Made by a program: the position numbers and the translations under genes. A DNA stretch of 64,000 bases from Roseovarius sp. THAF9 (lineage in GTDB: Bacteria; Pseudomonadota; Alphaproteobacteria; Rhodobacterales; Rhodobacteraceae): the NCBI RefSeq assembly GCF_009363715.1, contig NZ_CP045404.1, positions 526,001-590,000 of the forward strand, given 5' to 3'. Shown here piece after piece: positions 29,954 to 47,864 of this stretch; within the stretch, counting starts at the first letter, position 1, and each line of letters starts with the position of its first letter. The notes under the pieces were generated by a model, which was not told the origin of the DNA, ran no database searches, and saw only the letters and a program-made list of their open reading frames with translations.

Positions 29954-30484
29954 ATGAAAAAGTCGATACTCATCACCGGAGGCGCGCGGTCCGGCAAGTC
30001 GGCACTGGCCGAACGGGTGGCTTTGAAGCCTGCCGGCCGGGCGATCTATATCGCGACGGCGCGTCTGCACGCTGGCGACGACGAGATGGCCGAGCGCGTG
30101 GCGAAACACAAGGCGCGGCGCGGTGCGGCGTGGCAGGATGTTCATGCGCCGACCGATCTGGCTGGCGCGCTTAGGGACACCGATGGCAGTGTGCCGCGGC
30201 TGGTTGATTGCCTGACACTTTGGCTGACGAATCTCATCCTCGATAACAGCGACTGGCAGAGCGAGACCGACAGGTTGGTCGAGACTCTGGCGCGCCAGGC
30301 CGCGCCGGTCGTCTTTGTCACTAACGAAGTGGGGCAGGGGATCGTGCCGGAAAACAAGCTGGCCCGGCTTTTCCGCGATGCCGCGGGGCACGTAAACCAA
30401 TCCGTGGCGCAGGCCTGTGACGAGGTGTGGCTGACCGTGGCGGGCTACCCGATTAAGGTAAAGCCGAATGACCATTCTTTCTGA
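29954..30484 (+). CDS. cobU: Adenosylcobinamide kinase / adenosylcobinamide-phosphate guanylyltransferase
   Basis: CobU (CobP in Pseudomonas denitrificans) phosphorylates adenosylcobinamide and adds GMP to make adenosylcobinamide-GDP. The 176-residue protein has the P-loop ILITGGARSGKSALAERV at residues 5-22, the CobU-typical YIATARLHAGDDEMAERVAKH near 36, and VVFVTNEVGQGIVPENKLARLFRD near 118. It starts the plus-strand late run cobU-cobT-cobS, overlapping cobT by 17 bp. Confidence 0.95.
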   Translation: MKKSILITGGARSGKSALAERVALKPAGRAIYIATARLHAGDDEMAERVAKHKARRGAAWQDVHAPTDLAGALRDTDGSVPRLVDCLTLWLTNLILDNSDWQSETDRLVETLARQAAPVVFVTNEVGQGIVPENKLARLFRDAAGHVNQSVAQACDEVWLTVAGYPIKVKPNDHSF

Positions 30485-31484
30485 CGTCTTGTCGCTGGAC
30501 CAAGTTGCGTGCCTCGCTGGTTCTTTGCCCATGGCCGATGTGAAGTCGGCCGAGGCGGCGCTGGCGCGCCAGAACAGCCTGACCAAGCCGCCGGGCGCCT
30601 TGGGGAGGCTGGAGGAACTGGCGATTTTCATGGCAGGCTGGCAAGGCACGGACCGGCCCGCCATTGCGGGTTCACAGGCCTTGGTCTTTGCGGGCAATCA
30701 CGGCGTCTGCGCGCAGGGGGTCAACCCGTTTCCGCAGGACGTGACGGCGCAGATGGTGGCGAATTTCGAGCACGGTGGCGCGGCGATCAACCAGTTGTGC
30801 CGCGCGAACGGGGCCGAATTGTCGGTGATTGCGCTGGAGTTGGACCGGCAGACCGCCGACATCACCGCAGGACCCGCCATGTCGGAGGCGGAGACGCTGG
30901 ACGCCTTGCGTTGCGGGGCGGCGGCTGTCGATCCCCGTGTCAGCGTGCTGATCCTCGGTGAGATGGGCATCGGCAATTCGACCATCGCCGCCGCGATGGC
31001 CAAGGGCGCCTTTGGCGGAGACGCCGCGCTTTGGGTCGGCAAGGGGACGGGGTCGGACGACGAGGGGATCACGCGCAAGATCGACGTGGTGACACGCGCC
31101 TGCGCTTGTCATTCGGATGCCGGCGGGCTGGACATCCTTGCCAGGCTCGGAGGGCGGGAGCAAGCGGCGATCTGCGGCGCCGTGCTGGAGGCGCGAGCGC
31201 GGGGCATTCCGGTCATCCTCGATGGATTCATCTGCACGGCGGCAACGGTGCCGCTCTTTGCCGCCGACCGGCGGTTCCTGGACCATTGCCTCGTCGGGCA
31301 TGTCAGTCGCGAGCCGGGCCATGCGCGGCTTCTGGCGGAACTGGGGATACGGCCGATCCTGTCGCTGGACATGGCGCTGGGCGAAGGTTCGGGCGCGGCG
31401 ATTGCGCTGAGCGTTTTGCGCGCAGCGCTGGCCTGCCACAACGGGATGGCGACCTTTGCGGAGGCCGGGGTGTCGGGTCCATGA
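30468..31484 (+). CDS. cobT: Nicotinate-nucleotide--dimethylbenzimidazole phosphoribosyltransferase
   Basis: This enzyme activates the lower ligand by making alpha-ribazole phosphate from nicotinate mononucleotide and DMB (CobT in Salmonella naming, CobU in Pseudomonas denitrificans). The 338-residue protein has TKPPGALGRLEELA near residue 39, VFAGNHGVCAQGVNPFPQDVT near 73 and LGEMGIGNSTIAAAM near 158, all typical. It should not be confused with the chelatase subunit CobT. It overlaps cobS by ATGA. Confidence 0.95.
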   Translation: MTILSDVLSLDQVACLAGSLPMADVKSAEAALARQNSLTKPPGALGRLEELAIFMAGWQGTDRPAIAGSQALVFAGNHGVCAQGVNPFPQDVTAQMVANFEHGGAAINQLCRANGAELSVIALELDRQTADITAGPAMSEAETLDALRCGAAAVDPRVSVLILGEMGIGNSTIAAAMAKGAFGGDAALWVGKGTGSDDEGITRKIDVVTRACACHSDAGGLDILARLGGREQAAICGAVLEARARGIPVILDGFICTAATVPLFAADRRFLDHCLVGHVSREPGHARLLAELGIRPILSLDMALGEGSGAAIALSVLRAALACHNGMATFAEAGVSGP

Positions 31485-32206
31485 GCTTGCGTGTGCGCAT
31501 TTCCGAGGTTCAACTGGCGGTGATGCTGCTGACCCGGATTCCGGCGGGTCGGATCGGTGACGACCCACCGACAATGCTGGCCGCGCGGTGGGCATTCGTC
31601 CCGGTGGGGACGCTTGTCGGCGCGCTGACGTGGTTGGTCTTCTGCCTCACGGATGCGGTCGGCGCGTCTGAGCAGATTTCGGCCCTCCTGGCGTTGGGCG
31701 CCATGGCGCTGGTTACCGGCGCGCTGCATTTTGACGGGCTGGCGGATTTCGCCGACGGGCATGGTGGCGGGCGCGACAAGGCCCACGCCCTGGAGATCAT
31801 GCGCGACAGCCGCATCGGCAGCTACGGCGTGGTTGCGGTGGGGTTGGTTTCGGCTTTGTGGGCGGTGTCGGTGGCCGAAGCCAACGCTGGCTTTTGCGCG
31901 TTCGTTGGCGCGGCCATGCTGAGCCGCGCAGCCATGGTGGCGGTGCAGGAGAGCCTGGCCCCGGCCCGCGCCGATGGCTTGGGGCATGAGGCGGCGGGCC
32001 GGAGCAAGGCCGCGCGCGGGGTTCTTGCGGTCGTGACGGTCGTGGCGCTGGCGGTTTCACCCTGGGCGCTGGTGGTTTGCGCGCTGGCGACCGGTGCCAT
32101 CTGGTGGCTGGCGTGGCGCAAGATCGGCGGGCAGACCGGCGACGTCCTGGGGGCTGTGCAACTGGTCGCGGAAACCGCCATCTGGGTCGCTTTTGCGTGT
32201 CTTTGA
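31481..32206 (+). CDS. cobS: Adenosylcobinamide-GDP ribazoletransferase (cobalamin synthase)
   Basis: This inner-membrane enzyme joins adenosylcobinamide-GDP to alpha-ribazole (phosphate), the final assembly step (CobS in Salmonella, CobV in Pseudomonas denitrificans). The 241-residue protein has several hydrophobic helices, the N-terminal QLAVMLLTRIP, and the signature HFDGLADFADGHGGGRDKAHALEIMRDSRIGSYG around residues 82-115 (acidic metal-binding residues plus the MRDSRIGSYG loop). It is the last gene of the run; bluB lies convergently 18 bp beyond. Confidence 0.95.
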   Translation: MSLRVRISEVQLAVMLLTRIPAGRIGDDPPTMLAARWAFVPVGTLVGALTWLVFCLTDAVGASEQISALLALGAMALVTGALHFDGLADFADGHGGGRDKAHALEIMRDSRIGSYGVVAVGLVSALWAVSVAEANAGFCAFVGAAMLSRAAMVAVQESLAPARADGLGHEAAGRSKAARGVLAVVTVVALAVSPWALVVCALATGAIWWLAWRKIGGQTGDVLGAVQLVAETAIWVAFACL

Positions 32207-32224
32207 GGCCCTTGGGCCGCACCG

Positions 32225-33167
<943 letters not shown>

Positions 33168-33176
33168 AACGGGGAT

Positions 33177-33356
33177 GATCGGTTCCATTTCCGCACGGGA
33201 TGGAGAACAGGGAACGCGGTGCGCCTGAAAACATTTGGCAATTCCGTGGCTGTCCCCGCAACTGTAGGCGGCGAATCAGGCTGAATACGTCACTGGAGCA
33301 ATCCGGGAAGGCCAGCCAGACGATGAAGACCCGCAAGCCAGGAGACCTGCTGATCG
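33177..33356 (+). promoter_or_regulatory. Cobalamin riboswitch upstream of cbtB-cbtA
   Basis: The aptamer elements are in order on the plus strand: GATCGGTTCC, ACAGGGAACGCGGTG, GGCTGTCCCCGCAACTGTA, CACTGG, GGGAAGGCCAGCC, and the B12 box GCAAGCCAGGAGACCTGC. A small hairpin (GCCTTC...GAAGGC, about 33373-33390) follows and sits just before the ribosome site of cbtB, so control may act on translation. It represses cobalt uptake when B12 is plentiful. Confidence 0.95.
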
Positions 33357-33404
33357 CGACTGAAACCACAGGGCCTTCGGGTGTGAAGGCAAAGAGGTAG
33401 TACT

Positions 33405-33581
33405 ATGACTGCAAAGACTGCAACCGCTGCACAGACAACATCGGCTTCTGGGCTGGTTTCGGTGATCGCCATCGCCGCTCTGGGTCTTGGTGTGATCTTC
33501 GTGGCAGGCCACGTTCAGGCCGCGGCGCTGCACGACGCGGCGCATGACGTGCGTCACGCCACCGGCTTCCCCTGCCACTGA
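33405..33581 (+). CDS. cbtB: CbtB, small cobalt-transporter subunit
   Basis: The 58-residue product has one transmembrane helix (about residues 18-38) and ends with the CbtB hallmark HDAAHDVRHATGFPCH, a His/Cys-rich tail thought to bind cobalt. It lies directly behind a B12 riboswitch and 3 bases before cbtA. CbtB and CbtA together form a predicted cobalt transporter found in B12-regulated operons. AAAGAGGT supplies a ribosome site. Confidence 0.92.
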   Translation: MTAKTATAAQTTSASGLVSVIAIAALGLGVIFVAGHVQAAALHDAAHDVRHATGFPCH

Positions 33582-33584
33582 CCG

Positions 33585-34286
33585 ATGTTCACGCGTCTGC
33601 TGACCAGCGCCTTGTTCGCTGGCGCTGCCGCAGGGTTGATTGTCGCCCTGTTGCAGCTCTTTTTCGTGCAGCCGGTCCTTCTTCATGCCGAGCTTTATGA
33701 AAGCGGGGAGCTGGTGCATTTCGGGACCGACTCGACGGTTTCGGCGACGCCGGAGCTGCCTGGCTTCGATGCCGTGCGCGACGGTCTGAGTATCATCTTC
33801 ACGATGCTGATCTATTCCGGCTACGCCATGATTCTGGTGGCGCTGATGTCGCTGGCCGAGACCCGTGGTGCGGCAATCAACGCGCGCACGGGCTTGATCT
33901 GGGGTGTTGCGGGGTTTGTCGCGGTGCACCTCGCGCCCGGCTTGACCCTCGCGCCGGAAGTTCCGGGCGTGGCTGCGGCCGATGTCTACGAGCGCCAGGT
34001 GTGGTGGTTCGCAACCGTACTGGCGGCCGCGATTGCCATGTGGCTGATCGCCTTCGCCCGGAACTGGGCCGGCTGGGGGGCCGCCGTAGTGCTCTTGCTT
34101 GCGCCGCATGTTATCGGTGCACCGGAACCCGAGGTCTTTACCGGACCTGTGCCGACCGAGATCGGTGCCTTGTTCGCGTCGCGCGCGCTTGGGATAGGAT
34201 TGGCGGCATGGGTCATGCTGGGGTCCTTCGCGGGCTTTTTCTGGTCGCGCGAGAGCGAAACGACTGGGCAGCCTCAGACCGCCTGA
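33585..34286 (+). CDS. cbtA: CbtA, cobalt-transporter subunit
   Basis: This 233-residue inner-membrane protein has about six hydrophobic segments and the CbtA-typical N-terminus LTSALFAGAAAGLIVALLQ followed by PVLLHAELYE. A conserved HLAPGLTLAPEVPG segment lies near residue 111. By established family knowledge it is the main membrane part of the predicted CbtAB cobalt importer. It is translated right after cbtB under the same riboswitch. Confidence 0.92.
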   Translation: MFTRLLTSALFAGAAAGLIVALLQLFFVQPVLLHAELYESGELVHFGTDSTVSATPELPGFDAVRDGLSIIFTMLIYSGYAMILVALMSLAETRGAAINARTGLIWGVAGFVAVHLAPGLTLAPEVPGVAAADVYERQVWWFATVLAAAIAMWLIAFARNWAGWGAAVVLLLAPHVIGAPEPEVFTGPVPTEIGALFASRALGIGLAAWVMLGSFAGFFWSRESETTGQPQTA

Positions 34287-34358
34287 GACTGCTACACCCT
34301 TGTCGGGCGCGTGTGGTGCGCGCCCGCCTTCTTTTCAAACCTGACGCCGGGCCCGCCC

Positions 34359-34856
34359 ATGGACCGTTCCATTCCTATGCTTTTGATCGGCCTCGTTTTC
34401 GGCGGGGGCATCGGGTTTGCCGTCGCAGCGGCCAACGGTGTCTCCCTCGACGGGCATGAGCATAGCGACCCGGCTCATCATGGCGGTCACGAGCAGCATG
34501 CCGGGGACGGTATGCACGATCATGGTGACATGTTGTCGGTTCCGGCAGGCACCGATGCGCCAGAGCTGGAGATAGAGGTGACGCCCGATCCTTCAGCCGG
34601 CTGGAACCTGCACATCATGACCAAGAACTTCCGGTTCTCGCCGGAAAACGCGAGCCGCGACCATGTTCCGGGCGAAGGACATGCCCATGTCTACGTTAAC
34701 GGCGTCAAGTTGGCCCGTGTGTATGGTCCCTGGGTGCACCTGGACACCCTGCCCGAAGGCGAGGTGGAGCTAAAGGTGGCATTGAACAGCAACGATCACC
34801 GTCCATTGGCCGTGGGCGACGCTCCGGTCGCGCAGACCGTCACGTTTGGCAACTGA
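34359..34856 (+). CDS. Histidine-rich exported or anchored protein, probable metal binder
   Basis: The 165-residue protein starts with a hydrophobic signal or anchor (residues 5-24, IPMLLIGLVFGGGIGFAVAA), followed by a His-rich run at about 31-53 (HEHSDPAHHGGHEQHAGDG and HDHGD). A globular, beta-rich domain follows, with GHAHVYVNGVKLARVYG and a final HRPLAVGDAPVAQTVT. It stands 72 bp after cbtA, so it probably belongs to the riboswitch operon and captures cobalt in the periplasm; this is inference. The last 17 bp overlap the convergent DUF1636 gene. Confidence 0.75.
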   Translation: MDRSIPMLLIGLVFGGGIGFAVAAANGVSLDGHEHSDPAHHGGHEQHAGDGMHDHGDMLSVPAGTDAPELEIEVTPDPSAGWNLHIMTKNFRFSPENASRDHVPGEGHAHVYVNGVKLARVYGPWVHLDTLPEGEVELKVALNSNDHRPLAVGDAPVAQTVTFGN

Positions 34857-35184
34857 GCGCTGGAACACGCCCCACCAGACAGAACCGAAGCCGACCGCAG
34901 GGTTGCGCATCCTCGATCCAGCCGTTTCGCGAGGCGAGGTAGGCGCGCAAGGTTGCAACGATATCTTCTGCATCCGCGATTGGGTCCACTCCGTTGAAGA
35001 AGTAAGTGGCCCGACCTGGGCCCTGGATGGCCATCGAAACCGGGCGGGCGCATCCGTTCATGCACCCGCGTTCGACGATATGCACCGTGTCTTCCAGTTC
35101 TGCTGTGTCCAAAGCCTGGTAAAGTGTCCCAAGGTTCAAAGGGCCGCAGTTCTGACAGAAATGAATTGTGGCGGAAGGGTTCAT
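34840..35184 (-). CDS. DUF1636 family cysteine-rich protein, second copy
   Basis: This 114-residue protein is a second, diverged member of DUF1636, with HFCQNCGPLNLG near residue 8 and ERGCMNGCARPVSM near 38, in the same positions as the cysteines of the copy ahead of cobW. It ends in a Cys-containing tail (LSCQT). Gene context again is cobalt uptake. The start at 35184 begins the family-typical N-terminus. It overlaps the His-rich gene tail-to-tail by 17 bp; no riboswitch is visible on its upstream side. Confidence 0.8.
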   Translation of the reverse strand: MNPSATIHFCQNCGPLNLGTLYQALDTAELEDTVHIVERGCMNGCARPVSMAIQGPGRATYFFNGVDPIADAEDIVATLRAYLASRNGWIEDAQPCGRLRFCLVGRVPALSCQT

Positions 35185-35558
35185 GCGGTGTCTCGCGATG
35201 CGTCGGCAGTGTGAGTGCATACAGATCAAGGCGGTCGCGTCAATTCAGGCGAAAATCGGAAATTCGCCCATCAACACCTCAAGAACTTGTTCATATGAGA
35301 ATAAACGAGACATCGAAGGACACAAGCGCGCGACCTATCACTGGCTAAAGTGCCAAAACTCGTATGTTTCTGTCACCGGCAATAATCACCGGCTTCGCCA
35401 AAGGTTGTCACTGTGTCATTGCGACGTCGCGGCTCAGAACATTGCGACAAAGTCGTTCGTAAGGTGCAAACAACTCGTGCCAATGCCCGAAGTTGTCCGA
35501 ATCGATGACGCGTGCAATACTTATAGTTGTATAAAAGTTCATTTTAGGAGATTTCGCG
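35185..35558. other. 374-bp intergenic region at the border of the accessory region
   Basis: No gene is convincing here. GC content falls clearly compared with the B12 locus. TTGTCC (35492-35497), 17 bases, AATACT (35515-35520) could be a sigma-70 promoter for the small gene at 35559. Confidence 0.4.
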
Positions 35559-35780
35559 ATGGCTGATTCACTTAAAGGCCTGTCTGCCAAAGACATTGTA
35601 AAAGTAAGCAAGTTGGCCGCAGCGCCGACTTCGTCTGACGAGTTCTCTGAGGTTTTCGCCGAAGACCCGACCTTGGCATTGGCGACGAAAGGCATCGAAC
35701 TTAGCCCTGGCGAAGCTGACAAGATCAAAGCAAGCCTTGGAAAGCTTGGTGGAAGCCCCGGAACAGTCGCATCCACCTAG
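35559..35780 (+). CDS. Putative RiPP precursor peptide (73 aa)
   Basis: The ATG at 35559 is preceded by TAGGAG. The 73-residue product is acidic in the leader part (SSDEFSEVFAEDPTLALATKG) and ends in a short Gly/Ser/Lys-rich segment (KASLGKLGGSPGTVAST). It has no signal peptide and no membrane helix. It directly precedes, by 31 bp, a gene whose product begins like radical-SAM RiPP maturation protein 1. A small leader-core-like peptide in that position is the usual layout of such loci, so I call it a candidate precursor. The core residues and the modification are unknown. Confidence 0.55.
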   Translation: MADSLKGLSAKDIVKVSKLAAAPTSSDEFSEVFAEDPTLALATKGIELSPGEADKIKASLGKLGGSPGTVAST

Positions 35781-35811
35781 ATTGGCGTAACGGTGAAGAA
35801 AAAGTTCTAGC

Positions 35812-36264
35812 GTGCTAGATCAGACTGCGCCCGGCTCGACACGGCACTATACACCGAGTGAATGCGCCAAGCTGGCAGTGTCCGAAAGTGGGTGCGAGAA
35901 CAAAGACATTGTTTTGGTAGTACCGCCTTTTGCCAGCCCTGACTGGCCTTCTTTGGGCGTGCATCTCTTGGCGGCAATAGCGGAGCAGAAAGGCTTCACT
36001 ACGAGCATTCTCTATGGCAACCTCTCCTTCGCACGTCTAGTGGGGCCCCAACTTTATCGATCGCTTTGTGTCACCAAGACTGGCGATCTGGTTGGAGAAC
36101 GTATCTTCCGCCGTGCATATTCTCGCACCCGAGACATCCCAGGCGAACTCCCCTTTACATGGGAGGACTTGAATGACGGTAACCCACCAGCGTTTGATTC
36201 CGTTCAACTGTTGGCATCAGAATGGGCTGTGGAATTAGCGGCAGCGCTAGCAAGAACTAAACCC
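35812..36264 (+). pseudogene. RiPP maturation radical SAM protein (B12-binding), truncated by IS insertion
   Basis: From a GTG start, about 151 codons encode the N-terminal B12-binding-like domain of a protein resembling RiPP maturation radical SAM protein 1: VLVVPPFASPDWPSLGVHLL, then ILYGNLSFARLVGPQLYRSL and a GERIFRRAYS segment. The intact protein would be about 600 residues with a CxxxCxxC cluster motif, none of which remains. The frame runs straight into an IS end at 36265. The rest is not found right of the IS region, so it is lost or lies elsewhere. Confidence 0.6.
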
Positions 36265-36464
36265 TGTCCGTCTTCAGAGTTTTTCGGACAAGTCGTTTGT
36301 TTTGGTAACGGAGGCTCTGGTTCGGTTTCTGTTTGAGTTTAGGCGACCGCGGCTTTGTGCTGCAACCGGCGCTTTCGGATTGTCTGTTTCTTGATCTCCT
36401 CTCTCATTTTCAGGATCGTCCGACCCCGACCGTGGTAGACGTCAGCCGGCGTCAGGTTATCCAG
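36265..36464 (-). mobile_element. 200-bp right-end fragment of the 1511-bp IS3-family element
   Basis: The 200 bp are identical to the first 200 bp of the adjacent full copy (36465 onward), including the terminal repeat TGTCCGTCTTCAG...CGGACA and the last 42 codons of its transposase orfB (stop at 36339). The full element starts directly after it, in the same orientation. It may be the leftover of an older copy into which the new one jumped, or an assembly artefact. Confidence 0.9.
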
Positions 36465-36538
36465 TGTCCGTCTTCAGAGTTTTTCGGACAAGTCGTTTGT
36501 TTTGGTAACGGAGGCTCTGGTTCGGTTTCTGTTTGAGT

Positions 36539-37519
36539 TTAGGCGACCGCGGCTTTGTGCTGCAACCGGCGCTTTCGGATTGTCTGTTTCTTGATCTCCT
36601 CTCTCATTTTCAGGATCGTCCGACCCCGACCGTGGTAGACGTCAGCCGGCGTCAGGTTATCCAGGCTCTCGTGGTATCGCCGAGTGTTGTAGTATCCGAC
36701 GAAGTCGCCGATCTGGCGTTCAAGATCCCCCGGCAGATAGTAGTTCTCCAGCAGAACCCGGTTCTTCATGGTCTGGTGCCAGCGTTCGATCTTGCCCTGG
36801 GTCTGTGGGTGGTGCGGCGCTCCGCGGACGTGATCCATACCTTTGGTATCGAGGTAGTCGGCCAGGTCGGCCGCAACGTAGGACGAGCCGTTGTCGCTGA
36901 GCAGCCGGGGCTTGTGAACGACTGTCGCATGAGCACAGCCCGAGGCCTCCAGCGCCAGATCCAGCGTGTCCGTCACATCCACGGCCTTCATTGTCGTGCA
37001 GAGCTTCCACGCGATGATGTAGCGGCTGTAATCGTCGAGGATCGTGCTGAGATAGAACCAGCCCCAACCGATGACCTTGAGATAGGTGAAGTCGGTTTGC
37101 CAGAGTTCGTTGGGCCGAGTTGTCTTGTCCCGGAACTCATCGGCGGCACGGATCACCACATGGGCCGGAGCCGTGATCAGGTCCTGGGCCTTGAGAATGC
37201 GGTATGCCGAGGACTCAGATACAAAATACCGTTTCTCATCGGTGTATTTGACCGCCAATTCCCGTGGCGTCAGATCCTCATGATCCAGCGCGAACTCAAC
37301 GAAGGCGTCGCGGATCTCGTCCGGGATGCGGTTCCACACCGCCCGAGGCCGCGGGGACGTGTCACGCAAAGCGTCAACGCCGCCATCGGCCCACCGCGCA
37401 TACCACTGGTAATAGGTGCTGCTGGGAATGCCGAGCATGGTCAGGGTCCGCCTGACCGGCAAATGCGAGGCTTCGACTGTCCGAATGATCTCGAGCTTCT
37501 CCGAGGCTGGGTATCTCAT
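36539..37519 (-). CDS. IS3-family transposase orfB (DDE integrase domain), copy A
   Basis: The 326-residue catalytic part has an N-terminal helical HTH_21-like region and an rve-type core with the DDE residues in WQTDFTYLK, LSDNGSSYVA and QGKIERWHQ. It starts by ATGA overlap with orfA; it may also be made as an OrfAB fusion by -1 frameshifting at AAAAAAG, because the -1 frame is open through the junction. The sequence is identical to the other copy, which indicates recent activity or gene conversion. Confidence 0.95.
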   Translation of the reverse strand: MRYPASEKLEIIRTVEASHLPVRRTLTMLGIPSSTYYQWYARWADGGVDALRDTSPRPRAVWNRIPDEIRDAFVEFALDHEDLTPRELAVKYTDEKRYFVSESSAYRILKAQDLITAPAHVVIRAADEFRDKTTRPNELWQTDFTYLKVIGWGWFYLSTILDDYSRYIIAWKLCTTMKAVDVTDTLDLALEASGCAHATVVHKPRLLSDNGSSYVAADLADYLDTKGMDHVRGAPHHPQTQGKIERWHQTMKNRVLLENYYLPGDLERQIGDFVGYYNTRRYHESLDNLTPADVYHGRGRTILKMREEIKKQTIRKRRLQHKAAVA

Positions 37520-37890
37520 GCGTCGTCCTCCCCATCCCCGAACGTGCTTTTTTTGAGCAGCCTGTTCTCCAGTGTCAGCTCCGCGACCACTTCTTTCAGC
37601 GCGGCTGCCTCAGAGCGCAGTTCCTTGACCTCGGGAGCTGTCGCCTGACGGGCTGTGTCACCCGCCAGCCGGTTCTTCCCAGCCTCAAGAAACTCCTTCG
37701 ACCAGCTGTAATAAAGGCTCTCAGCGATCCCTTCACGACGGCACAGGGCCGCTATGCTTTCTTCGCCCCGCATCCCGGCAAGCACGATGCGGATCTTCTC
37801 CTCCGCCGAGTAGTGCTTGCGGGTCTTACGCTTGATACCCCTAACAAGCTTGTCAGCAGCATCCTTGGATGTTCCGGATCTCTTGTTCAT
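37516..37890 (-). CDS. IS3-family transposase orfA (helix-turn-helix), copy A
   Basis: The 124-residue basic protein has the HTH_Tnp_1 domain (KHYSAEEKIRIVLAGMRGEES, then AALCRREGIAESLYYSWSKEF) and a C-terminal leucine-rich coiled coil. It binds the element ends. The Met at 37890 is preferred over the longer frame starting at 37938. Its last codons overlap orfB in the -1 frame. Confidence 0.92.
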   Translation of the reverse strand: MNKRSGTSKDAADKLVRGIKRKTRKHYSAEEKIRIVLAGMRGEESIAALCRREGIAESLYYSWSKEFLEAGKNRLAGDTARQATAPEVKELRSEAAALKEVVAELTLENRLLKKSTFGDGEDDA

Positions 37891-37981
37891 CTTCGCTCCA
37901 TTATGGCTTCGATGAACCAGAAATCCTCCGTTCCTCAAACACCTAAATCTGTCCGGTAGGTGCTGACGTTAGACAGGCCCT

Positions 37982-38260
37982 ATGACGATACTTCGTTTCG
38001 AAATGGCGAAATGGCCACGAGCAACGCTTCTAAAAAATTTATCTAATTTTAACTGTTATCAAGTTATTAGACTAAAGGTTCTGCTATCGGAGGATGTAAA
38101 GTTGAAGAACGTTTGGATCGTAGAAGTGCTCAAAGACGTGCAAATGTTTGCAGATATGAATAACCTCCAGATAACTTCGTCATCCGTTCGTGACATCCTT
38201 CCGAAAATCCTGAACGAGTTGGCGCAACCCAAGGCTACCGGTAAAGACTTGATCCGATAG
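37982..38260 (+). CDS. Hypothetical small protein (92 aa) inside the IS-bounded segment
   Basis: An AT-rich frame begins 7 bases after IS copy A. The 92-residue product has mixed charged and hydrophobic residues, with no signal or membrane helix. There is no clear ribosome site and no recognisable motif. It may be the tail of a gene cut by the IS or a chance frame. Confidence 0.3.
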   Translation: MTILRFEMAKWPRATLLKNLSNFNCYQVIRLKVLLSEDVKLKNVWIVEVLKDVQMFADMNNLQITSSSVRDILPKILNELAQPKATGKDLIR

Positions 38261-38302
38261 TGGTAAAATTCCGCAATTGAACAAATCATTACCATTGCAA
38301 AT

Positions 38303-38572
38303 TCATAGCAGGTTGAGGTCTGCGGCCTTGGACCTGGGCCCCCGGATCACGCTAACCTGTGTAGATCCGGTCAGGGTTTGTTCATCTTTTGCCCGCTGGT
38401 GATCCGTCCACGCGTCGAGGCTGGTAGGCGGGCTGTGGTCATCGTATTCGTTGTGCCATGCCTCAATTATGCCACACGCGAGGGCAGCAGAGGAGAATAG
38501 ATGATGTAGATGTACTCCTTGCGTATCTACCCATTCAAGCTTTCGAGCAGGCTTTTTTTCAACGGCTTGCAT
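38303..38572 (-). pseudogene. Decayed IS3-family transposase C-terminus
   Basis: The frame contains a recognisable but altered end of an IS3 orfB: IIEAWHNEYDDHSPPTSLDAW corresponds to the usual IEAWRxDYNxxRPHSSL segment. The catalytic residues and N-terminus are missing. It belongs to a different element from the intact 1511-bp one and shows that this segment has collected several insertions. Confidence 0.5.
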
Positions 38573-38851
38573 GCAGCGATTTACTGGTGATTGGCATTAC
38601 TACCTTTCTGCTATTCGAGCATAGCGTTTGAAGTTAGTTGGCTGTCAATGTTTGAAACCATCAGACAAGGTTACTCACCAGACTCGGAGATCCGATCGAG
38701 ATCGCGGGTGACACCCGCACTGCAGATGTGAGTACCAATTACTTTGGCTTAGATCTGTCCGCAGCATCAGGTCAATACGAATTGAGCATCCCAAGAGCCA
38801 AACAATTACGAGTATGGTGTTAGTTATGCATCGAGAGATATTTGCTTTCGG
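38573..38851. other. Non-coding or unrecognised stretch
   Basis: No start-to-stop gene is convincing. A short open frame ending near 38822 (GDTRTADVSTNYFGLDLSAA) has a beta-rich look but no start or known family; it may be a leftover gene piece. Confidence 0.3.
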
Positions 38852-40600
38852 CTAGCAAGCTACGTCTCGTGTGTAGGGAAGATGTTCTAATATCTCCTCC
38901 GGTGGAAATGGTCTGTTAAAAAAGTAGCCTTGCAAGGCGCTTGCTCCCAGTTTTCTTAGCAGATTTGCTTGTTCGTGTGTTTCGACGCCTTCCGCCGTTG
39001 TTTCGACGCCAAGACCGTTAGCCATTTCGATAATTGCACGAAGTACCAGCTGCTGGTCTGGATCCTTTATGGTGGGGGCCACGAGTTCTCGATCTATTTT
39101 TATAGCGTCCGGGCGAAGACGTGTTAACGCAACAAGCGAAGCACGACCTGTTCCGAAGTCGTCTATCTCAATTCTGATGTTGCGCCCCCGCAACCAGTCA
39201 ATCATCCACTGATCGTGGTCGGTTAATTTGTCGATTAGAATGGTCTCAACAAACTCAAGCGCGAGTTGGGCTCGCATCTCTGGCAGCTGCAAGATCGTAT
39301 CTGCAAGCTTTGGATCGCGAAGCCGCGAACAGCTTACATTGACGGCGAGTTTTGAGGCGTGAATCCCCGCATTTTCCCACTCGACGACATGTTGAACTGC
39401 CTTTTGCAATATCACCGCGTCAATGTCTGCTACCTTAGATATCTCCGTTGCTATTTCGATAAAACACTCGGGCCCGATAAGCCCACGTGTGGGGTGATTC
39501 CAACGCGCAAGGGCTTCAAGTCCTATCACCGTTCCTTGAAGTGGATCGTGTTGAGTTTGAAAAAATGGAATGAACTCATCGCGTTCGAGGCCGCGCACAA
39601 TCTCGTCAGCGATAGTCTTACGCTGACGGGCTTGCTCCCGAAGTTCTTCGCTGAACACTTGAGCTTTATTGCTCCCAGGTTTTTTCGCTCGATACAGTGC
39701 CATGTCTGCCTCTGCGAACAACTGATCGGGGCTTCGTACCCTAAGAGCCGAACTTGCAATCCCGATCGAGAGGCCAAATCGCAGTTCACGACCATCATAA
39801 AGAAAAGGCAGGCGCGACCATTCGAGCACTGAATCGACGAAGCTATCGATCTCGTGCCATTGCGCGTCACGCAGTATTACGACAAATTCGTCGCCGCCGG
39901 AGCGGCCGATAGCAGCATTCTGTGGCGCAAGCCGGGACAACTCTTTAGCGGTTTGGCGCAGAACTGTATCACCGGCCGCATGGCCGGCAGTGTCATTGAT
40001 GGATTTGAATTCGTCGAGGTCCATAACTAGGACGTGTAGGACGGCGTTTTCGTCCAGCAAAGCTTGGCGGAGTGCGACATGTATACCTCTCCGATTTAAT
40101 AAGCTTGTTAATTCATCACGGCTGGCTTGGTGTTCCATGTGCTCGAGATGGCGCGAAATTACTGCGGCAATTGTGACGCCGAGTGCGCAATTCAGGCTTC
40201 CAAGGCCAGCGTGGTTCCAAAAATGAATCCAAGAGTATGTCTCAGCTGGCCATACCAGAGACGGCACGGTAAAGCTCAGTAATCCGTGGTGAACAAGAGC
40301 AATTACTAAGGTGGTGACGACCGAGCGCCAGCACGCGTAGGCAACTACCAAACCACTATTTATGAAATAGAACATATGCACCTCAAGCATGTATTGCCCT
40401 TGGTGCAGATCGGCGATCACGTAGAGTGCCATCATCCAAGTTGTGTTTATCGCGACAGTGAGCGTGATCCTGGTTTTTAACGCGTGACGATTGGTACGCC
40501 ATTGCAAAATCGCCCAAAGTCCGATTGCTAGCATCGGGACGGAAACACTCAAGACGGAGACATCAAGCAGTGCAGCGAGAGTTATGACGCTCAATGTCAT
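38852..40600 (-). CDS. Membrane-anchored GGDEF-EAL protein (c-di-GMP turnover), N-terminus at IS edge
   Basis: The 582-residue product has about five hydrophobic segments in residues 1-150, a GGDEF domain with intact SGGDEF in the middle, and a C-terminal EAL domain with the motif in VIGLEALARW and later DDFGTG and ETTAEGVE. It could both make and break c-di-GMP; I cannot say which activity dominates. The first ATG at 40600 uses a base of the abutting IS end, so the original gene may have been longer; a GTG at 40615 lies inside the IS. Base composition is lower in GC than the chromosome around it. Confidence 0.85.
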   Translation of the reverse strand: MTLSVITLAALLDVSVLSVSVPMLAIGLWAILQWRTNRHALKTRITLTVAINTTWMMALYVIADLHQGQYMLEVHMFYFINSGLVVAYACWRSVVTTLVIALVHHGLLSFTVPSLVWPAETYSWIHFWNHAGLGSLNCALGVTIAAVISRHLEHMEHQASRDELTSLLNRRGIHVALRQALLDENAVLHVLVMDLDEFKSINDTAGHAAGDTVLRQTAKELSRLAPQNAAIGRSGGDEFVVILRDAQWHEIDSFVDSVLEWSRLPFLYDGRELRFGLSIGIASSALRVRSPDQLFAEADMALYRAKKPGSNKAQVFSEELREQARQRKTIADEIVRGLERDEFIPFFQTQHDPLQGTVIGLEALARWNHPTRGLIGPECFIEIATEISKVADIDAVILQKAVQHVVEWENAGIHASKLAVNVSCSRLRDPKLADTILQLPEMRAQLALEFVETILIDKLTDHDQWMIDWLRGRNIRIEIDDFGTGRASLVALTRLRPDAIKIDRELVAPTIKDPDQQLVLRAIIEMANGLGVETTAEGVETHEQANLLRKLGASALQGYFFNRPFPPEEILEHLPYTRDVAC

Positions 40601-40864
40601 GTCTAACGTCAGCACCTACCGGACAGATTTAGGTGTTTGAGGAACGGAGGATTTCTGGTTCATCGAAGCCATAATGGAGCGAAGATGAACAAGAGATCCG
40701 GAACATCCAAGGATGCTGCTGACAAGCTTGTTAGGGGTATCAAGCGTAAGACCCGCAAGCACTACTCGGCGGAGGAGAAGATCCGCATCGTGCTTGCCGG
40801 GATGCGGGGCGAAGAAAGCATAGCGGCCCTGTGCCGTCGTGAAGGGATCGCTGAGAGCCTTTAT
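40600..40864 (+). mobile_element. 265-bp left-end fragment of the 1511-bp IS3-family element
   Basis: The 265 bp repeat the left end of the following full copy, from TGTCTAACGTCAGCACCTAC to the codons for IAESLY of orfA, where the new IS copy begins. It encodes only the N-terminal 60 residues of OrfA (from 40685). It mirrors the situation at 36265-36464, where a right-end fragment borders copy A. Confidence 0.9.
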
Positions 40865-40949
40865 TGTCTAACGTCAGCACCTACCGGACAGATTTAGGTG
40901 TTTGAGGAACGGAGGATTTCTGGTTCATCGAAGCCATAATGGAGCGAAG

Positions 40950-41324
40950 ATGAACAAGAGATCCGGAACATCCAAGGATGCTGCTGACAAGCTTGTTAGG
41001 GGTATCAAGCGTAAGACCCGCAAGCACTACTCGGCGGAGGAGAAGATCCGCATCGTGCTTGCCGGGATGCGGGGCGAAGAAAGCATAGCGGCCCTGTGCC
41101 GTCGTGAAGGGATCGCTGAGAGCCTTTATTACAGCTGGTCGAAGGAGTTTCTTGAGGCTGGGAAGAACCGGCTGGCGGGTGACACAGCCCGTCAGGCGAC
41201 AGCTCCCGAGGTCAAGGAACTGCGCTCTGAGGCAGCCGCGCTGAAAGAAGTGGTCGCGGAGCTGACACTGGAGAACAGGCTGCTCAAAAAAAGCACGTTC
41301 GGGGATGGGGAGGACGACGCATGA
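40950..41324 (+). CDS. IS3-family transposase orfA, copy B
   Basis: Identical to the copy A product: 124 residues with HTH_Tnp_1 and a leucine-rich coiled coil. The A7 slippery run is at 41286-41292, and the TGA overlaps the orfB start by ATGA. Confidence 0.92.
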   Translation: MNKRSGTSKDAADKLVRGIKRKTRKHYSAEEKIRIVLAGMRGEESIAALCRREGIAESLYYSWSKEFLEAGKNRLAGDTARQATAPEVKELRSEAAALKEVVAELTLENRLLKKSTFGDGEDDA

Positions 41325-42301
41325 GATACCCAGCCTCGGAGAAGCTCGAGATCATTCGGACAGTCGAAGCCTCGCATTTGCCGGTCAGGCGGACCCTGAC
41401 CATGCTCGGCATTCCCAGCAGCACCTATTACCAGTGGTATGCGCGGTGGGCCGATGGCGGCGTTGACGCTTTGCGTGACACGTCCCCGCGGCCTCGGGCG
41501 GTGTGGAACCGCATCCCGGACGAGATCCGCGACGCCTTCGTTGAGTTCGCGCTGGATCATGAGGATCTGACGCCACGGGAATTGGCGGTCAAATACACCG
41601 ATGAGAAACGGTATTTTGTATCTGAGTCCTCGGCATACCGCATTCTCAAGGCCCAGGACCTGATCACGGCTCCGGCCCATGTGGTGATCCGTGCCGCCGA
41701 TGAGTTCCGGGACAAGACAACTCGGCCCAACGAACTCTGGCAAACCGACTTCACCTATCTCAAGGTCATCGGTTGGGGCTGGTTCTATCTCAGCACGATC
41801 CTCGACGATTACAGCCGCTACATCATCGCGTGGAAGCTCTGCACGACAATGAAGGCCGTGGATGTGACGGACACGCTGGATCTGGCGCTGGAGGCCTCGG
41901 GCTGTGCTCATGCGACAGTCGTTCACAAGCCCCGGCTGCTCAGCGACAACGGCTCGTCCTACGTTGCGGCCGACCTGGCCGACTACCTCGATACCAAAGG
42001 TATGGATCACGTCCGCGGAGCGCCGCACCACCCACAGACCCAGGGCAAGATCGAACGCTGGCACCAGACCATGAAGAACCGGGTTCTGCTGGAGAACTAC
42101 TATCTGCCGGGGGATCTTGAACGCCAGATCGGCGACTTCGTCGGATACTACAACACTCGGCGATACCACGAGAGCCTGGATAACCTGACGCCGGCTGACG
42201 TCTACCACGGTCGGGGTCGGACGATCCTGAAAATGAGAGAGGAGATCAAGAAACAGACAATCCGAAAGCGCCGGTTGCAGCACAAAGCCGCGGTCGCCTA
42301 A
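41321..42301 (+). CDS. IS3-family transposase orfB, copy B
   Basis: Identical 326-residue DDE transposase (WQTDF, SDNGSSY, GKIERWH). All catalytic residues are intact, so the element appears able to transpose. Confidence 0.95.
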   Translation: MRYPASEKLEIIRTVEASHLPVRRTLTMLGIPSSTYYQWYARWADGGVDALRDTSPRPRAVWNRIPDEIRDAFVEFALDHEDLTPRELAVKYTDEKRYFVSESSAYRILKAQDLITAPAHVVIRAADEFRDKTTRPNELWQTDFTYLKVIGWGWFYLSTILDDYSRYIIAWKLCTTMKAVDVTDTLDLALEASGCAHATVVHKPRLLSDNGSSYVAADLADYLDTKGMDHVRGAPHHPQTQGKIERWHQTMKNRVLLENYYLPGDLERQIGDFVGYYNTRRYHESLDNLTPADVYHGRGRTILKMREEIKKQTIRKRRLQHKAAVA

Positions 42302-42375
42302 ACTCAAACAGAAACCGAACCAGAGCCTCCGTTACCAAAACAAACGACTTGTCCGAAAAACTCTGAAGACGGACA

Positions 42376-43083
42376 GGGCACAGGCTATGCAAGTCTAGTG
42401 TAGCGTGTGGTCCGAAAGTGCAAACTCGGTACTACTGTTGTCGTATGAGGCAAAGCAAGGTTGCCGCGTTATCTCACACGCTCAACGAAGCCGTCAAAGC
42501 TACATGCTGCACCATAGTGTTGCGTGCATTCTCGATCTTGGCGCAGCGTCATGCTGAACTTGTTCCCATTAGAAATAGCGATCGTACATTGCGATGTTTC
42601 GTAACCGGAGGTGACCAGAAACAGGTCACCTGCATTGTGCTTGGCCAACCTACCTTCTACGAGGCCAATGCAACCCTGTGCCAGTATTCATACGAAAGCG
42701 TCCCGACCATTCACGATCAGACGTATTTTTCCGATATCGCTTGCGCCGCCTTCGTAAACGACGTCCATGAGATAGTCCGTCTCGGTTGGCAACGGCGACG
42801 CATAATTGGCGAAGATCATCGCGGCTATGATCGCTGTCCAAATGTCTTCCTATCGGCAATCGTCCTCGCAGCGACCGTCATCTATTGGTTATGAACCCTA
42901 GCCCTAGGGTAGCGCCAAGTATCCGGCGTGCTCGGGCAAATGAGACGCCGCCAATGCGCCTGCGGCCGTCGCCGGCCTTTCTGCGCGGGAATGACGGAGT
43001 TGAAAAACATTCATGTTTATGGCTAGACTTCTGATATTGATTGATACGACGTTCTTTTATGCGACGACAAAGCGATTTTTGGT
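42376..43083. other. 708-bp stretch with no confident gene
   Basis: A 158-codon plus-strand frame at 42418-42894 (starting GTG) is open but has an irregular composition, no ribosome site and no known motif. On the minus strand a short frame ending near 42703 reads AIIAAMIFANYASPLP then VVYEGGASDIGKIRLIVNG, which looks more protein-like (one membrane helix and a small domain) but lacks a clear start. A palindrome (ACCCTAGCCCTAGGGT) lies at about 42895-42910. The stretch may contain degraded genes. Confidence 0.4.
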
Positions 43084-44199
43084 ATGGCTCAACCGAACGG
43101 TGTCTATATAACGCGTCCCGCTCTGCCCCCTTTGGACGAGGTCATTGTTCATCTCGAGCGCATTTGGGAAACGCACAAGCTAACGAACAATGGTCCAATG
43201 GCGCAAGCCCTCGAGGAGCAGCTGTGCGACAGTCTCGGGCTGACACATCTCACCCTGACCTCGAATTGCACACTTGGTCTGATCGCCGCACTGAGGGCGC
43301 TCGACGTCCGCGGCGAGGTCATTACGACGCCGTTTTCCTTTGTCGCGACCGCAAACGCCATCGTCATGGCTGGTGCAACGCCGGTCTTCGCGGATATCGA
43401 CCCGGACTCTCTCAACCTTTCGCCGCGCACCGTGGCGGAGAGCATCACCGAGCGTACCTCGGCAATCGTGGCTGTGCACAGCTACGGACATCCCTGCGAC
43501 ATCGAAGGCCTGCAAGCGATTGCGGATGAGCATGGAATTCCGCTGATCTTCGACGCCGCGCATTGCTTCGGGGCGCGCCTGCACGACCGCAGCCTGCTGG
43601 ATTTCGGCACCTGCTCGGTGGTGAGTTTCCACGCCACGAAGGTCTTCAACACCTTCGAGGGCGGCGCGGTGATCACCCGTGACCCTGCGATCAAGAAAAA
43701 GGTCGACCGGCTCATCAACCATGGCATTGACGATGAAATCAACGCCCCCGAGATTGGGCTCAATGCGAAAATGAGCGAGTTCCATGCGGCGATCGGCCTC
43801 GCGCAGCTGCCCTATGTCTCTAACGATATCGCCCGGCGTGGTGCCCTGGTCGCGCGGTATCTCGACGCGCTGAAGGAGATTGAAGGGCTTTGCCCGGTGC
43901 GACCGATCCCCGAGCATCTGGTACCCAATAACTATATGTTTCCAATCTTGGTCGACGCCGCGTATCCGCTTTCGCGCGATGAACTCTTCGAGCGATTGAA
44001 GCGCGACGGTATTTTCGCCCGCATGTATTTCTTTCCGCTTATCTCGGATCTGCCTTCGTTTCGGGACATGGCATCGGCCGCTCGGGACACGCTTCCGGTG
44101 GCAGGCGACACGGCAGACCGCATCCTTTGCCTGCCGCTGTTTCCGGATCTCGAGCTCAAAGCGCAGGATCGGATCATCGATCTTCTCCGCGCGCCATGA
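43084..44199 (+). CDS. DegT/DnrJ/EryC1/StrS family PLP aminotransferase
   Basis: The 371-residue protein is a sugar-aminotransferase-type enzyme: substrate and PLP sites at NGPMAQALEEQL and TTPFSFVATANAI, Asp157 in PLIFDAAHCFG, and the PLP-binding Lys186 in SFHATKVFNTFEGG. Such enzymes aminate nucleotide-linked keto-sugars for polysaccharide or glycoconjugate synthesis. It leads a four-gene run with two glycosyltransferases and a YdcF-like protein. The region upstream to the IS has no obvious promoter match. Confidence 0.88.
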   Translation: MAQPNGVYITRPALPPLDEVIVHLERIWETHKLTNNGPMAQALEEQLCDSLGLTHLTLTSNCTLGLIAALRALDVRGEVITTPFSFVATANAIVMAGATPVFADIDPDSLNLSPRTVAESITERTSAIVAVHSYGHPCDIEGLQAIADEHGIPLIFDAAHCFGARLHDRSLLDFGTCSVVSFHATKVFNTFEGGAVITRDPAIKKKVDRLINHGIDDEINAPEIGLNAKMSEFHAAIGLAQLPYVSNDIARRGALVARYLDALKEIEGLCPVRPIPEHLVPNNYMFPILVDAAYPLSRDELFERLKRDGIFARMYFFPLISDLPSFRDMASAARDTLPVAGDTADRILCLPLFPDLELKAQDRIIDLLRAP

Positions 44200-45254
44200 G
44201 GCTCAACACTGATTTGCTCGTGTGGGGCATGCACCGGACGCGAACCGGACGCCGACTTTCTGTGGAAGAGGTCGCCAGCGACAGCTGGGAGATATCACCC
44301 GAGCACAAAGCCGCGTCTCCTCCCGCGATCTTTCTCGAGGGCGCGCTGGACAAAATCACCGCCTTTTCTCCCTGGACGTCGTGGGAGTACGAGAAGCCTC
44401 GCGTGCATGGCGAGACGATCCTTCATTCCGCGACGGTCGCCTATCTGCTACGTGACGCGCGGCTCAACGGTGCCTGGCTTTACTGCGGCGCACACAAGGG
44501 CGAGCGCGGGTTCGGCGAAGAACGGCTGATCAACACGCGCCGATCCAAACGCAGGCGGCTCAACCGGGCGCATCTGGTCTCGAACAGCCCCGGCAGCAAT
44601 TTCTTCGGTAATTTTGTGCTCGACGATTTCCCACTGGCCTTGCTGCCGGGTCGCGAAGAAACGCCGATTGTCCTTGAAACGAAAGTCTACGAGCACGAAG
44701 CTGGCTATCGGCAGTTGCTCGACCTGCCGCGACCGCAGTTGGTGCACCGGGCGCGCGTGGACGAACTCGTCGTTTATACCGATTTCGCTCAGAATGCCTC
44801 CAAACGCAGCCGCTATGATACGCTTCGAAAGCGTATGCGCGCCGCGCTGGACACCGCCGATGAAAAGCGAACTGGTCTCGTTTATCTCAAACGCGGGGCG
44901 ACCGGAGAGTCTCGGCTTGTAACAAACGAACCGGCGCTTGAGGCGCATCTGGAAAAGCGCGGTTTCGAGATCGTCGAGCCGGCCAGGCTCAGCGCGGAAG
45001 AGACCTCACGACGCCTGCTTGACGCGCGTCTGATCGTCAGTGTCGAGGGTAGCCACTTGTCACATGCGATCTACAGCATGGCTGGCGACGGCACGTTCCT
45101 CGTGCTTGAGCCTCCAGACCGTTTCGCCACCCCCTACAAGGAATTCGCAGACTGCATGGACATGCGCTTCGCCTTTCTTGTCGGAGATCCGGCCGAGCGC
45201 GGCTTCAGCGTCGATCTCGATGATCTCGACCGGCTTCTGGACAAGCTCGCATGA
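44196..45254 (+). CDS. Glycosyltransferase family 61-like protein (DUF563)
   Basis: The 352-residue soluble protein resembles DUF563/GT61 glycosyltransferases: SNFFGNFVLDDFPLALLPG in the middle, VYLKRGATGESRLVTNE (the 'R-x-x-x-R' region before the C-terminal half) and ARLIVSVEGSHLSHAIYSM near the end, a typical GT61 segment. It overlaps the aminotransferase by ATGA and the next glycosyltransferase by ATGA. It probably adds a sugar during synthesis of a surface glycan; the acceptor is unknown. Confidence 0.75.
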   Translation: MRLNTDLLVWGMHRTRTGRRLSVEEVASDSWEISPEHKAASPPAIFLEGALDKITAFSPWTSWEYEKPRVHGETILHSATVAYLLRDARLNGAWLYCGAHKGERGFGEERLINTRRSKRRRLNRAHLVSNSPGSNFFGNFVLDDFPLALLPGREETPIVLETKVYEHEAGYRQLLDLPRPQLVHRARVDELVVYTDFAQNASKRSRYDTLRKRMRAALDTADEKRTGLVYLKRGATGESRLVTNEPALEAHLEKRGFEIVEPARLSAEETSRRLLDARLIVSVEGSHLSHAIYSMAGDGTFLVLEPPDRFATPYKEFADCMDMRFAFLVGDPAERGFSVDLDDLDRLLDKLA

Positions 45255-46450
45255 CAACCGGATCAAAACCCACCGACCTCGTCCTGATGCCGATCCTCAA
45301 GGCGCACCGGACAGCGCAGGGGCGTTTGGTGGTGACACAGAAATACCTAGACGGGGCGACCGAGTACGCGAAATCCTGGCCGGGATCGGTTGTCAGCCTT
45401 TTCAAGCTTTCGGACAAGCCTTCGTCGGACATGGACCATGTCGAGGTTGACGGGCCGGACGGCTCACACCGGATCGAGCTTTTGCCGCGATCGCCAGCAG
45501 AGCTTGCGGAACGACTTAAATCCGCTGCTCTGGCTGTCGGTTCGCTTGCGCCAGAAGAAAAGTCGACCACGGTCTTGTGCAACCGGATCGGCGTGCCGAT
45601 TGTCCAGGTGTCGGAATACACGCTCAAGACCGAATGGCAGATCATCGACGCCCAAGGCGCCAACCCGATCGTGACCATGAGACGCAAGCAGTGGGCGTGG
45701 AAAACGGAACGCGTTAGGCGACGCCTCATCAGGCTTTCCGCCGGTCTTCAGTGCAATGGAACGCCCACATTCGACGCCTACCGCCCAATCTGTCCGGATG
45801 CGTTCCTTTATTTCGATAACCGTGTACGCGAGGCGGATGTGATTACGCCTCAGGAGCTGCGGCGCAAAGCCGATCGACTGCGCCAGGGCGCTCCGTTGCG
45901 GCTTGTTTTCGGGGGGCGGTTCGTGCCGATGAAGGGCGCGCTGCACCTGCCCGAGGTCGCCCGAGAGCTGCGCGACCGCGGCGTGCCCTTCCAGCTTGAG
46001 ATCTATGGAACGGGTCCGGACGAGCCCGCCCTCCGAAGTGCAATCGCGCGTTATGCGCTACAGGATCTCGTGACCATCCATGCACCGATCGATTTTCGCA
46101 GCGGCTGGGTGCCTTTCCTCAAGGAGGACCCGGATCTTTTCGTGTGCTGCCATCCTCAGGGAGACCCGTCGAGCACATATTCAGAGGTCAGTTCGTGCGG
46201 CGTGCCCATAGCCGGGTTTGACAACGAGGCATTCAGCGGTTTTCAGCGATTGTCTGGGGCCGGGTTTCTCGCGCCGATGAAAGATGCGGGCAAGCTGGCG
46301 CAGGTCATCGCAGAGCTGCACGCCGACCGTGAGCGCCTAGTCATCGCGGCTCAGAAGGCACGCGCTTTCGCGATCCAGCACAGCTTTGAGGCGACGTTCA
46401 AGCGGCGCACCGAGAATTACATATGCAAGAGTCTATTGACCAAAACCTGA
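45251..46450 (+). CDS. Glycosyltransferase (GT4-like)
   Basis: The 399-residue protein has the C-terminal half of a GT-B glycosyltransferase: RLVFGGRFVPMKGALHLPEVA near residue 217, LEIYGTGPDEPALR near 250, and the DPSSTYSEVSSCGVPIAGFDNE segment near 304-325, which corresponds to the donor-binding E-x7-E region. The N-terminal half is less conserved. It is translated together with the two genes before it and probably works in the same glycan pathway. Confidence 0.8.
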   Translation: MTTGSKPTDLVLMPILKAHRTAQGRLVVTQKYLDGATEYAKSWPGSVVSLFKLSDKPSSDMDHVEVDGPDGSHRIELLPRSPAELAERLKSAALAVGSLAPEEKSTTVLCNRIGVPIVQVSEYTLKTEWQIIDAQGANPIVTMRRKQWAWKTERVRRRLIRLSAGLQCNGTPTFDAYRPICPDAFLYFDNRVREADVITPQELRRKADRLRQGAPLRLVFGGRFVPMKGALHLPEVARELRDRGVPFQLEIYGTGPDEPALRSAIARYALQDLVTIHAPIDFRSGWVPFLKEDPDLFVCCHPQGDPSSTYSEVSSCGVPIAGFDNEAFSGFQRLSGAGFLAPMKDAGKLAQVIAELHADRERLVIAAQKARAFAIQHSFEATFKRRTENYICKSLLTKT

Positions 46451-46469
46451 TCCAGTCGGGAGAGGCACG

Positions 46470-47264: not shown

Positions 47265-47309
47265 TGCAGATCTTGTGCGAGAAACCGGGAATAAGCTCCG
47301 GGTCAGACC

Positions 47310-47494
47310 TCAAGCTCGATTGCCGGTGAAATCCCTTGGAATCAGAAGGATATCTCGGTCGACCCTGGTGACGTTCTGATGACCGCAGAGCGCCATGGAG
47401 ACGTCGAGCTCTTTGTGGACAATCTCGAGTGTCCTGGTCACACTTTCTTGCCCCATCGCGTCGAGCCCGTAGGTGAAGGCGCGACCGATATAGC
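47310..47494 (-). pseudogene. C-terminal fragment of an FMN-dependent alpha-hydroxy-acid dehydrogenase (LldD-like)
   Basis: On the minus strand a frame encodes IGRAFTYGLDAMGQ, then TLEIVHKELDVSMALCG and VDRDILLIPRDF, matching the last about 60 residues of L-lactate dehydrogenase/glycolate-oxidase-type proteins, and ends in TGA at 47310. The rest of the gene is missing; upstream sequence switches to an IS3 orfA fragment. Confidence 0.7.
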
Positions 47495-47680
47495 ACGATA
47501 CTGATCTTCTCTTCCGCTGAATATTGTCTGCGGGTCGCGCGACGGATGTCTTTGGCTACCGTCTCGCCGTGGCTCTGCTTGGTTACGGGTTTCTGGTTCA
47601 TCTCCACTGCTTGGTGGTTACGCTGTGTCAGAAATCCTCTCTTATCAAATCGCCCTAAACCGACCCGTTGGTGCTGAAGC
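47495..47680 (-). mobile_element. End of a second IS3-family element with orfA start
   Basis: From an ATG at 47601 the frame encodes the start of an IS3 orfA (TRRQYSAEEKISIVL) and then breaks at about 47494, where the dehydrogenase fragment begins. The DNA upstream contains TTTCTGGTTCAT and a TGTCAG-type end, similar in layout to the intact element but clearly a different, older one. Confidence 0.65.
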
Positions 47681-47864
47681 AAGACACTGGCATCTGTCTT
47701 CCACGCTGAGGATACGGGGTCGATTCCCGCCGCTCGATCCAGTTTTGCGCCCTCGCCGCCCCATGGACCGACGTGCCCCGATGGCCGAGCGGATGTTACG
47801 CCCTTGACCCCGGCGACGCGCCCGGCCATGACAAGGGCCGGATGAAAAACACGTACGGGGATCC

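Follow-up and report, generated by a model that had tools for sequence, protein, structure and literature searches.

Among the described systems closest to the locus treated here are PoyB and PoyC of polytheonamide biosynthesis and the bottromycin methyltransferases, with which it can be compared through papers, not by sequence, and whose shared features are the cysteine motif Cx7Cx2C, a cobalamin (B12)-binding domain, and valine and isoleucine among the methylated residues. The polytheonamide precursor is of the NHLP type. Enzymes resembling the family TIGR03975, which mature ribosomally synthesized and post-translationally modified peptides (RiPPs), are widespread, and their modified peptides and sites of modification seem little known; one survey set aside antiSMASH matches under a TIGR03975-type rule as likely false positives (PMC9426513). 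Literature searches, in a collection without most subscription papers, listed no paper with a title or opening abstract lines on the tail-bearing precursors described below; two surveys among the results name TIGR03975. We analyzed a 64,000-nucleotide stretch of Roseovarius sp. THAF9 (the window), in which a small gene (35559..35780, plus strand) is followed by the beginning of a B12/radical S-adenosylmethionine (SAM) maturase gene (35812..36264, plus strand) cut by an insertion sequence (IS). We consider it very probable that the two genes are what is left of a RiPP cassette that has been broken twice; its intact relatives may methylate valine and isoleucine residues of the precursor core.

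The maturase fragment and its missing part

The fragment comprises the N-terminal 151 codons of the enzyme, with a GTG start, and matches TIGR03975 ('RiPP maturation radical SAM C-methyltransferase'; NCBIfam) over positions 1-72 of 606 (E = 4.9e-14, 51.7 bits), in agreement with an earlier note, made from the sequence alone, which had proposed such a gene start cut by an IS (the IS begins at 36265) and had considered membership of another family as the alternative. The score lies below the curated cut-off of 281.85, as expected for a quarter-length piece, and relatives (P0003-P0011) include P0004 and P0003 with 537.8 and 491.4 bits, above that cut-off. P0003, a metagenome protein of 523 residues, is 81% identical to the fragment and probably comes from one and the same contig as P0002, the closest relative of the small gene's product, because the clusters of both share a longest contig of 12,469 bases. 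Likenesses of this degree, 81% here and 88% for P0002, go beyond chance. At least 546 of 594 pattern-matched stretches encode a TIGR03975-like relative; a contig scan with the window fragment itself gave 115 pattern matches and no relatives, and an alignment-based scan succeeded.

What has been lost is the C-terminal three quarters of the enzyme, not its head, as the earlier term 'decapitated' would have it. The fragment is not recognized by Pfam at E<=1 and carries no radical-SAM cysteine motif, the position of which lies past the cut. PF02310 (B12-binding) and PF04055 (radical SAM) are both found in P0003 and P0004; the PF02310 match of P0004 (residues 133-218; 28.6 bits, under the cut-off of 32.1) starts near the point at which the window copy is cut, so that the proposed N-terminal B12-binding-like domain is visible in the relatives and not in the fragment. 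The motif to look for is Cx7Cx2C, rather than the CxxxCxxC named in the earlier note: it is present in all eight aligned relatives and in 13 of 13 inspected loci, which were collected with scan patterns that included CWWG[AE]KH.

The idea that the missing part might lie elsewhere in the genome was not borne out. A TIGR03975 search of the window's genome retrieved only the fragment, a BchE-like gene and one 12.2-bit match (the same search, below cut-off, was also positive in 12 of 14 control genomes); P0004 as query against the six contigs of the assembly, which is 99.96% complete, returned nothing besides the fragment and the BchE-like gene; and the C-terminal part of P0004 gave a best E of 0.61 by tblastn against the 64-kb window. 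The BchE-like gene (L013, 6659-8317) lies inside a photosynthesis gene cluster, as read from the neighboring open reading frames (ORFs).

The insertion sequence

At the cut, 200 bp of the IS end, a partial copy (36265..36464, minus strand), abut a complete IS of 1511 bp (36465..37975, minus strand), whose two ORFs for transposase, at 37516-37938 and at 36539-37519, carry PF01527 (HTH_Tnp_1, helix-turn-helix) and PF00665 (rve, integrase core); from this layout, two ORFs with both domains, we take it to belong to the IS3 family. Sequence comparison places a second complete copy, inverted and 100% identical, 2.9 kb beyond the first (40865..42375, plus strand), next to 265 bp of the other IS end, again a partial copy (40600..40864, plus strand). 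Genome-wide, we counted 12 full-length copies, one at 94%, six partial copies and two weak matches, and the IS has moved recently, since all 12 full-length copies are 100% identical. The maturase reading is not resumed beyond the IS, neither in the window nor in the genome, and the DNA beyond the junction has therefore been lost or exchanged. A GGDEF-EAL gene in the window (38852-40615) has its 5' end at an IS junction; its opening codons are IS sequence, and its true start may be lost.

Of the 12 full-length copies, 6 have a partial copy (200 to 1037 bp, in either orientation) directly or almost directly beside them, which reflects either insertion of the IS next to its own ends or misjoined contigs, and target-site repeats flanking the IS at the maturase locus are not clear. 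Both observations would suit a misassembly caused by the repeated IS, with the real chromosome retaining the rest of the gene, an explanation that we judge very improbable: searches of the six contigs found no C-terminal part, one unit of a partial and a full copy (L097) carries the 4-bp repeat ATCC on both flanks, like a real insertion, and the precursor gene bears a second lesion, a nonsense codon, that is independent of the IS.

A nonsense codon ahead of the precursor core

The small gene has a good ribosome-binding site (AGGAG at 35546..35550, plus strand, 8 nt ahead of the ATG), as the earlier note had seen, and encodes a truncated precursor of 73 residues with an NHLP-clan-like leader, from which the core is missing. 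Its ORF is closed by an in-frame TAG at 35778-35780, which had gone unnoticed and because of which the tail is missing. Homology past the TAG continues to 35810, both in comparison with a relative and in profile alignment: the untranslated relic of the core (35781..35810, plus strand) reads IGVTVKKKF-stop in frame, fits the C-terminus of the family, and ends one base before the GTG of the maturase gene. P0002, a metagenome protein of 83 residues and 88% identity, is ten residues longer than the window product, and in a class-wide search with a precursor profile the window aligned through the single TAG up to the last model position.

A profile built from five sequences retrieved 31 proteins at E<=2.1e-6 among 1566 candidates, the window's own included. 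Thirty of the 31 end in phenylalanine or tryptophan with valine or isoleucine at -5, -7 and -9 (for example, TEVEVSVKVKF), with 24 distinct sequences over the last 11 residues; the shifted registers -4,-6,-8 and -6,-8,-10 occur in none. The sole homologue that lacks the tail is the translated copy of the window, and the DNA past its stop fits the pattern. One could instead take the 73-residue product for the native precursor, with an original stop at 35778 and with extensions in the relatives; its good ribosome site and the absence of any other lesion seen in the ORF would agree with this. We give this explanation almost no weight, given a tail in 30 of 31 homologues and in-frame DNA past the TAG that encodes a fitting tail and stops at the family's end. 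In this assembly, the nonsense codon thus removes the core, independently of the IS insertion.

The window precursor joins leader homology to a site directly upstream of a TIGR03975 gene. As a lone query it retrieved only itself and P0002; against NCBIfam it matched NF038399 (E = 1.4e-4, 21.8 bits, cut-off 40) and TIGR04509 (E = 0.003, 17.6 bits, cut-off 34), in both cases under the cut-off, and had no match to Nif11 (TIGR03798) or, at E<=1, to Pfam. Among the 31 homologues, NF038399, TIGR04509 and TIGR03793 were matched at E<=0.1 by 30, 29 and 8, respectively; 9 of the 31 matched PF14407 (Frankia_peptide), the best at 9.4e-6.

Pairing of the precursor with the maturase

Homologues of the small gene lie directly upstream of maturase genes in three other loci, in a Hoeflea metagenome-assembled genome (MAG; L014), in Algimonas arctica (L015) and in a Bryobacterales MAG (L018), with precursor and maturase adjacent in each. 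The small gene is thus conserved upstream of these maturases, and the suggestion that it encodes a precursor holds, the window copy being truncated. In a Chloroflexi MAG (L072), the same type of tail stands behind a Nif11 leader (a TIGR03798 member, 46.4 bits against a cut-off of 32.3), and a double glycine precedes the core: ARSNLKISITVTIKF. We counted ORFs of 45-140 residues ending in [VI]x[VI]x[VI]xxx[FW] on both strands of 80 maturase loci (1,448,708 bp). Under this strict pattern, four ORFs end within 700 bp upstream of a maturase match (those of L014, L015, L018 and L072) and none lies elsewhere; a looser pattern gave the same four upstream and three elsewhere. Across a further 16 loci, the loose pattern occurs only in L009, a distant relative within the same family, in which a 53-residue peptide ending GG-VGVGVVW, a 71-residue ORF, a subtilisin-like protease (read from its ORF) and a TIGR03975-like enzyme follow in a row (7153-10859).

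Several observations weigh against the reading of a methylating two-gene cassette. The tail motif is partly circular, in that the precursors of L014, L015 and L018 served as seeds, and in that the tail was part of the profile that found the 31 homologues; L072 is the only one of the four tail loci found independently of the seeds. No tail pattern lies upstream of the maturase in 76 of the 80 loci (other small-protein families do in some of these), nor in the 1.5-kb flanks of any of the seven other strong maturase loci in the class sample. The leaders of the window and of its relatives score under the curated NHLP cut-offs, the best among the relatives' precursors reaching 26.5 bits. The Algimonas arctica maturase (L015, 10013-11703) is frameshifted near residue 185, with a C-terminus that departs from its relatives, and P0003 is short by about 90 C-terminal residues; three damaged members in a small clade, with the window, are perhaps a sign of frequent loss, or of sequencing error. 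Finally, we know of no product of the family, and its chemistry is not readable from the fold, as discussed below.

Among 38 loci, five (L030, L031, L021, L026 and L047) have another type of precursor upstream of the maturase, with a leader like ELEDKLSQMHVTEEEM, a cysteine-bearing middle and a glycine-rich tail such as GGGFGGLGG. Three of the 38 (L073, L079 and L090) have an upstream precursor ending SSDGVIRPRC[AM], which would appear to give this enzyme family one more type of core.

Distribution and genomic neighborhood

The earlier note had pointed to related strains as the place to look for intact loci. None of 35 other genomes of the genus has the fragment, and 4 of 393 other genomes of the family hold relatives of it (29-35% identical); side-by-side pairs occur instead in the other bacteria named above, with the frameshifted enzyme of Algimonas among them. 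In the class sample, the precursor profile matched 1 of 384 other genomes, and only partially (model positions 22-70), which we took as chance. The maturase profile matched 63 of 385 genomes, the window's own among them, at E<=0.001, mostly as weak radical-SAM cross-matches, with seven other strong matches (E<=1.4e-59). Plasmids and viral contigs, searched as possible carriers, gave no match.

The small gene adjoins a DUF1636 gene, present in 36 of 60 genomes of the genus (own included), at the edge of a B12 locus. For the closest three relatives, which are 85, 79 and 76% identical, blastn similarity to window positions 30,001-50,000 ends at 35251, 35227 and 35195, before the small gene, which speaks against the neighborhood as a functional link; the cobalamin side forms the conserved edge, and the RiPP remnant belongs to the variable part. 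The genes around L014, L015, L018 and L072, as read from their ORFs, have no evident relation to B12. The B12 neighborhood therefore looks coincidental, as the earlier note had allowed.

Proposed maturation and its chemistry

In the cassette as we picture it, the precursor would have an NHLP-clan-like leader and, at its C-terminus, a short core, with the maturase gene right behind. The intact enzyme would most likely bind the leader, perhaps through its own C-terminal domain, and cobalamin together with a [4Fe-4S] cluster held by Cx7Cx2C would methylate the beta carbons of the alternating valines and isoleucines in [V/I]x[V/I]x[V/I]K[V/I]KF, and possibly the last phenylalanine as well. Methylation at these sites, as judged from motif and core, we hold to be about an even proposition. 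In the window, a nonsense codon removes the core, and the radical-SAM part is gone through an IS3-type insertion and the loss of the DNA that followed. Either a membrane-active or a signaling peptide would fit as the product's role.

The predicted structure model of a relative resembles TokK, TsrM and OxsB. A sequence search of the PDB gave a single marginal match (9ccb, E = 7.4e-4), a Foldseek search with the C-terminal domain of the maturase, considered as a possible PqqD-like RiPP recognition element, nothing below E 0.001, and Pfam no match for six of seven C-terminal pieces and three matches above E 0.03 for the other. OxsB shares the fold and is not known as a methyltransferase. In a biphenomycin-like pathway, ortho-tyrosines are reported to be cross-linked by a B12 radical-SAM enzyme (PMC12257519). 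With these two examples, the reaction does not follow from the fold, and the intact enzyme might carry out a different radical reaction on the core, for instance cross-linking or epimerization, and no methylation. We regard this as rather unlikely: Cx7Cx2C is the motif reported for PoyC and the bottromycin C-methyltransferases, and the core offers conserved valines and isoleucines, which are methylation targets of PoyC, and a single aromatic residue, at its end.

A wider proposal, which we put forward tentatively and with somewhat less than even confidence, is that the intact relatives form a new RiPP subclass of two-gene cassettes, in each of which a single Cx7Cx2C B12 radical-SAM enzyme would methylate alternate residues in a short strand at the C-terminus, behind one of several leaders. 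Valine or isoleucine at -9, -7, -5 and mostly -3 would be beta-methylated, so that the modified residues share a single face of a beta strand that is cationic and ends in phenylalanine. The same core would be joined to NHLP-like, Nif11 and perhaps a third type of leader (that of L009, with GG-VGVGVVW), which would mean that the enzyme recognizes the pattern of the core instead of one particular leader. A core of ten residues, alternating and conserved by position, makes a small substrate with a sharp prediction of sites.

Comparison with known systems

Two described pathways were set aside: that of the cyclopropylglycine RiPP of TvgB, whose enzyme is of the SPASM type (PMC9062424), and the Pfl/Pos NHLP pathways, for which the pfl genes listed in the excerpt consulted include no radical-SAM gene (PMC12636437). 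To the NHLP clan (NF038399, the Os1348 family; TIGR04509; TIGR03793) and PF14407 the family precursors show a weak likeness in the leader; the scored precursors lie below the NCBIfam cut-offs, and the matches do not cover the conserved C-terminal core. Among Nif11-leader precursors, L072 is a member with the same core type, whereas the window precursor has no Nif11 match. With respect to TIGR03975 (rSAM_ocin_1), uninterrupted relatives match most of the profile above its cut-off, whereas the window piece covers 72 of 606 positions, and the reaction of the subgroup is a predicted one. The window locus is a case of ordinary decay, near known B12 radical-SAM methylating RiPP systems, and the tail family a candidate new RiPP subclass; it differs from polytheonamide and bottromycin in its bare two-gene cassette and in an alternating core of about ten residues, compared with residues 1 to 49 in polytheonamide.
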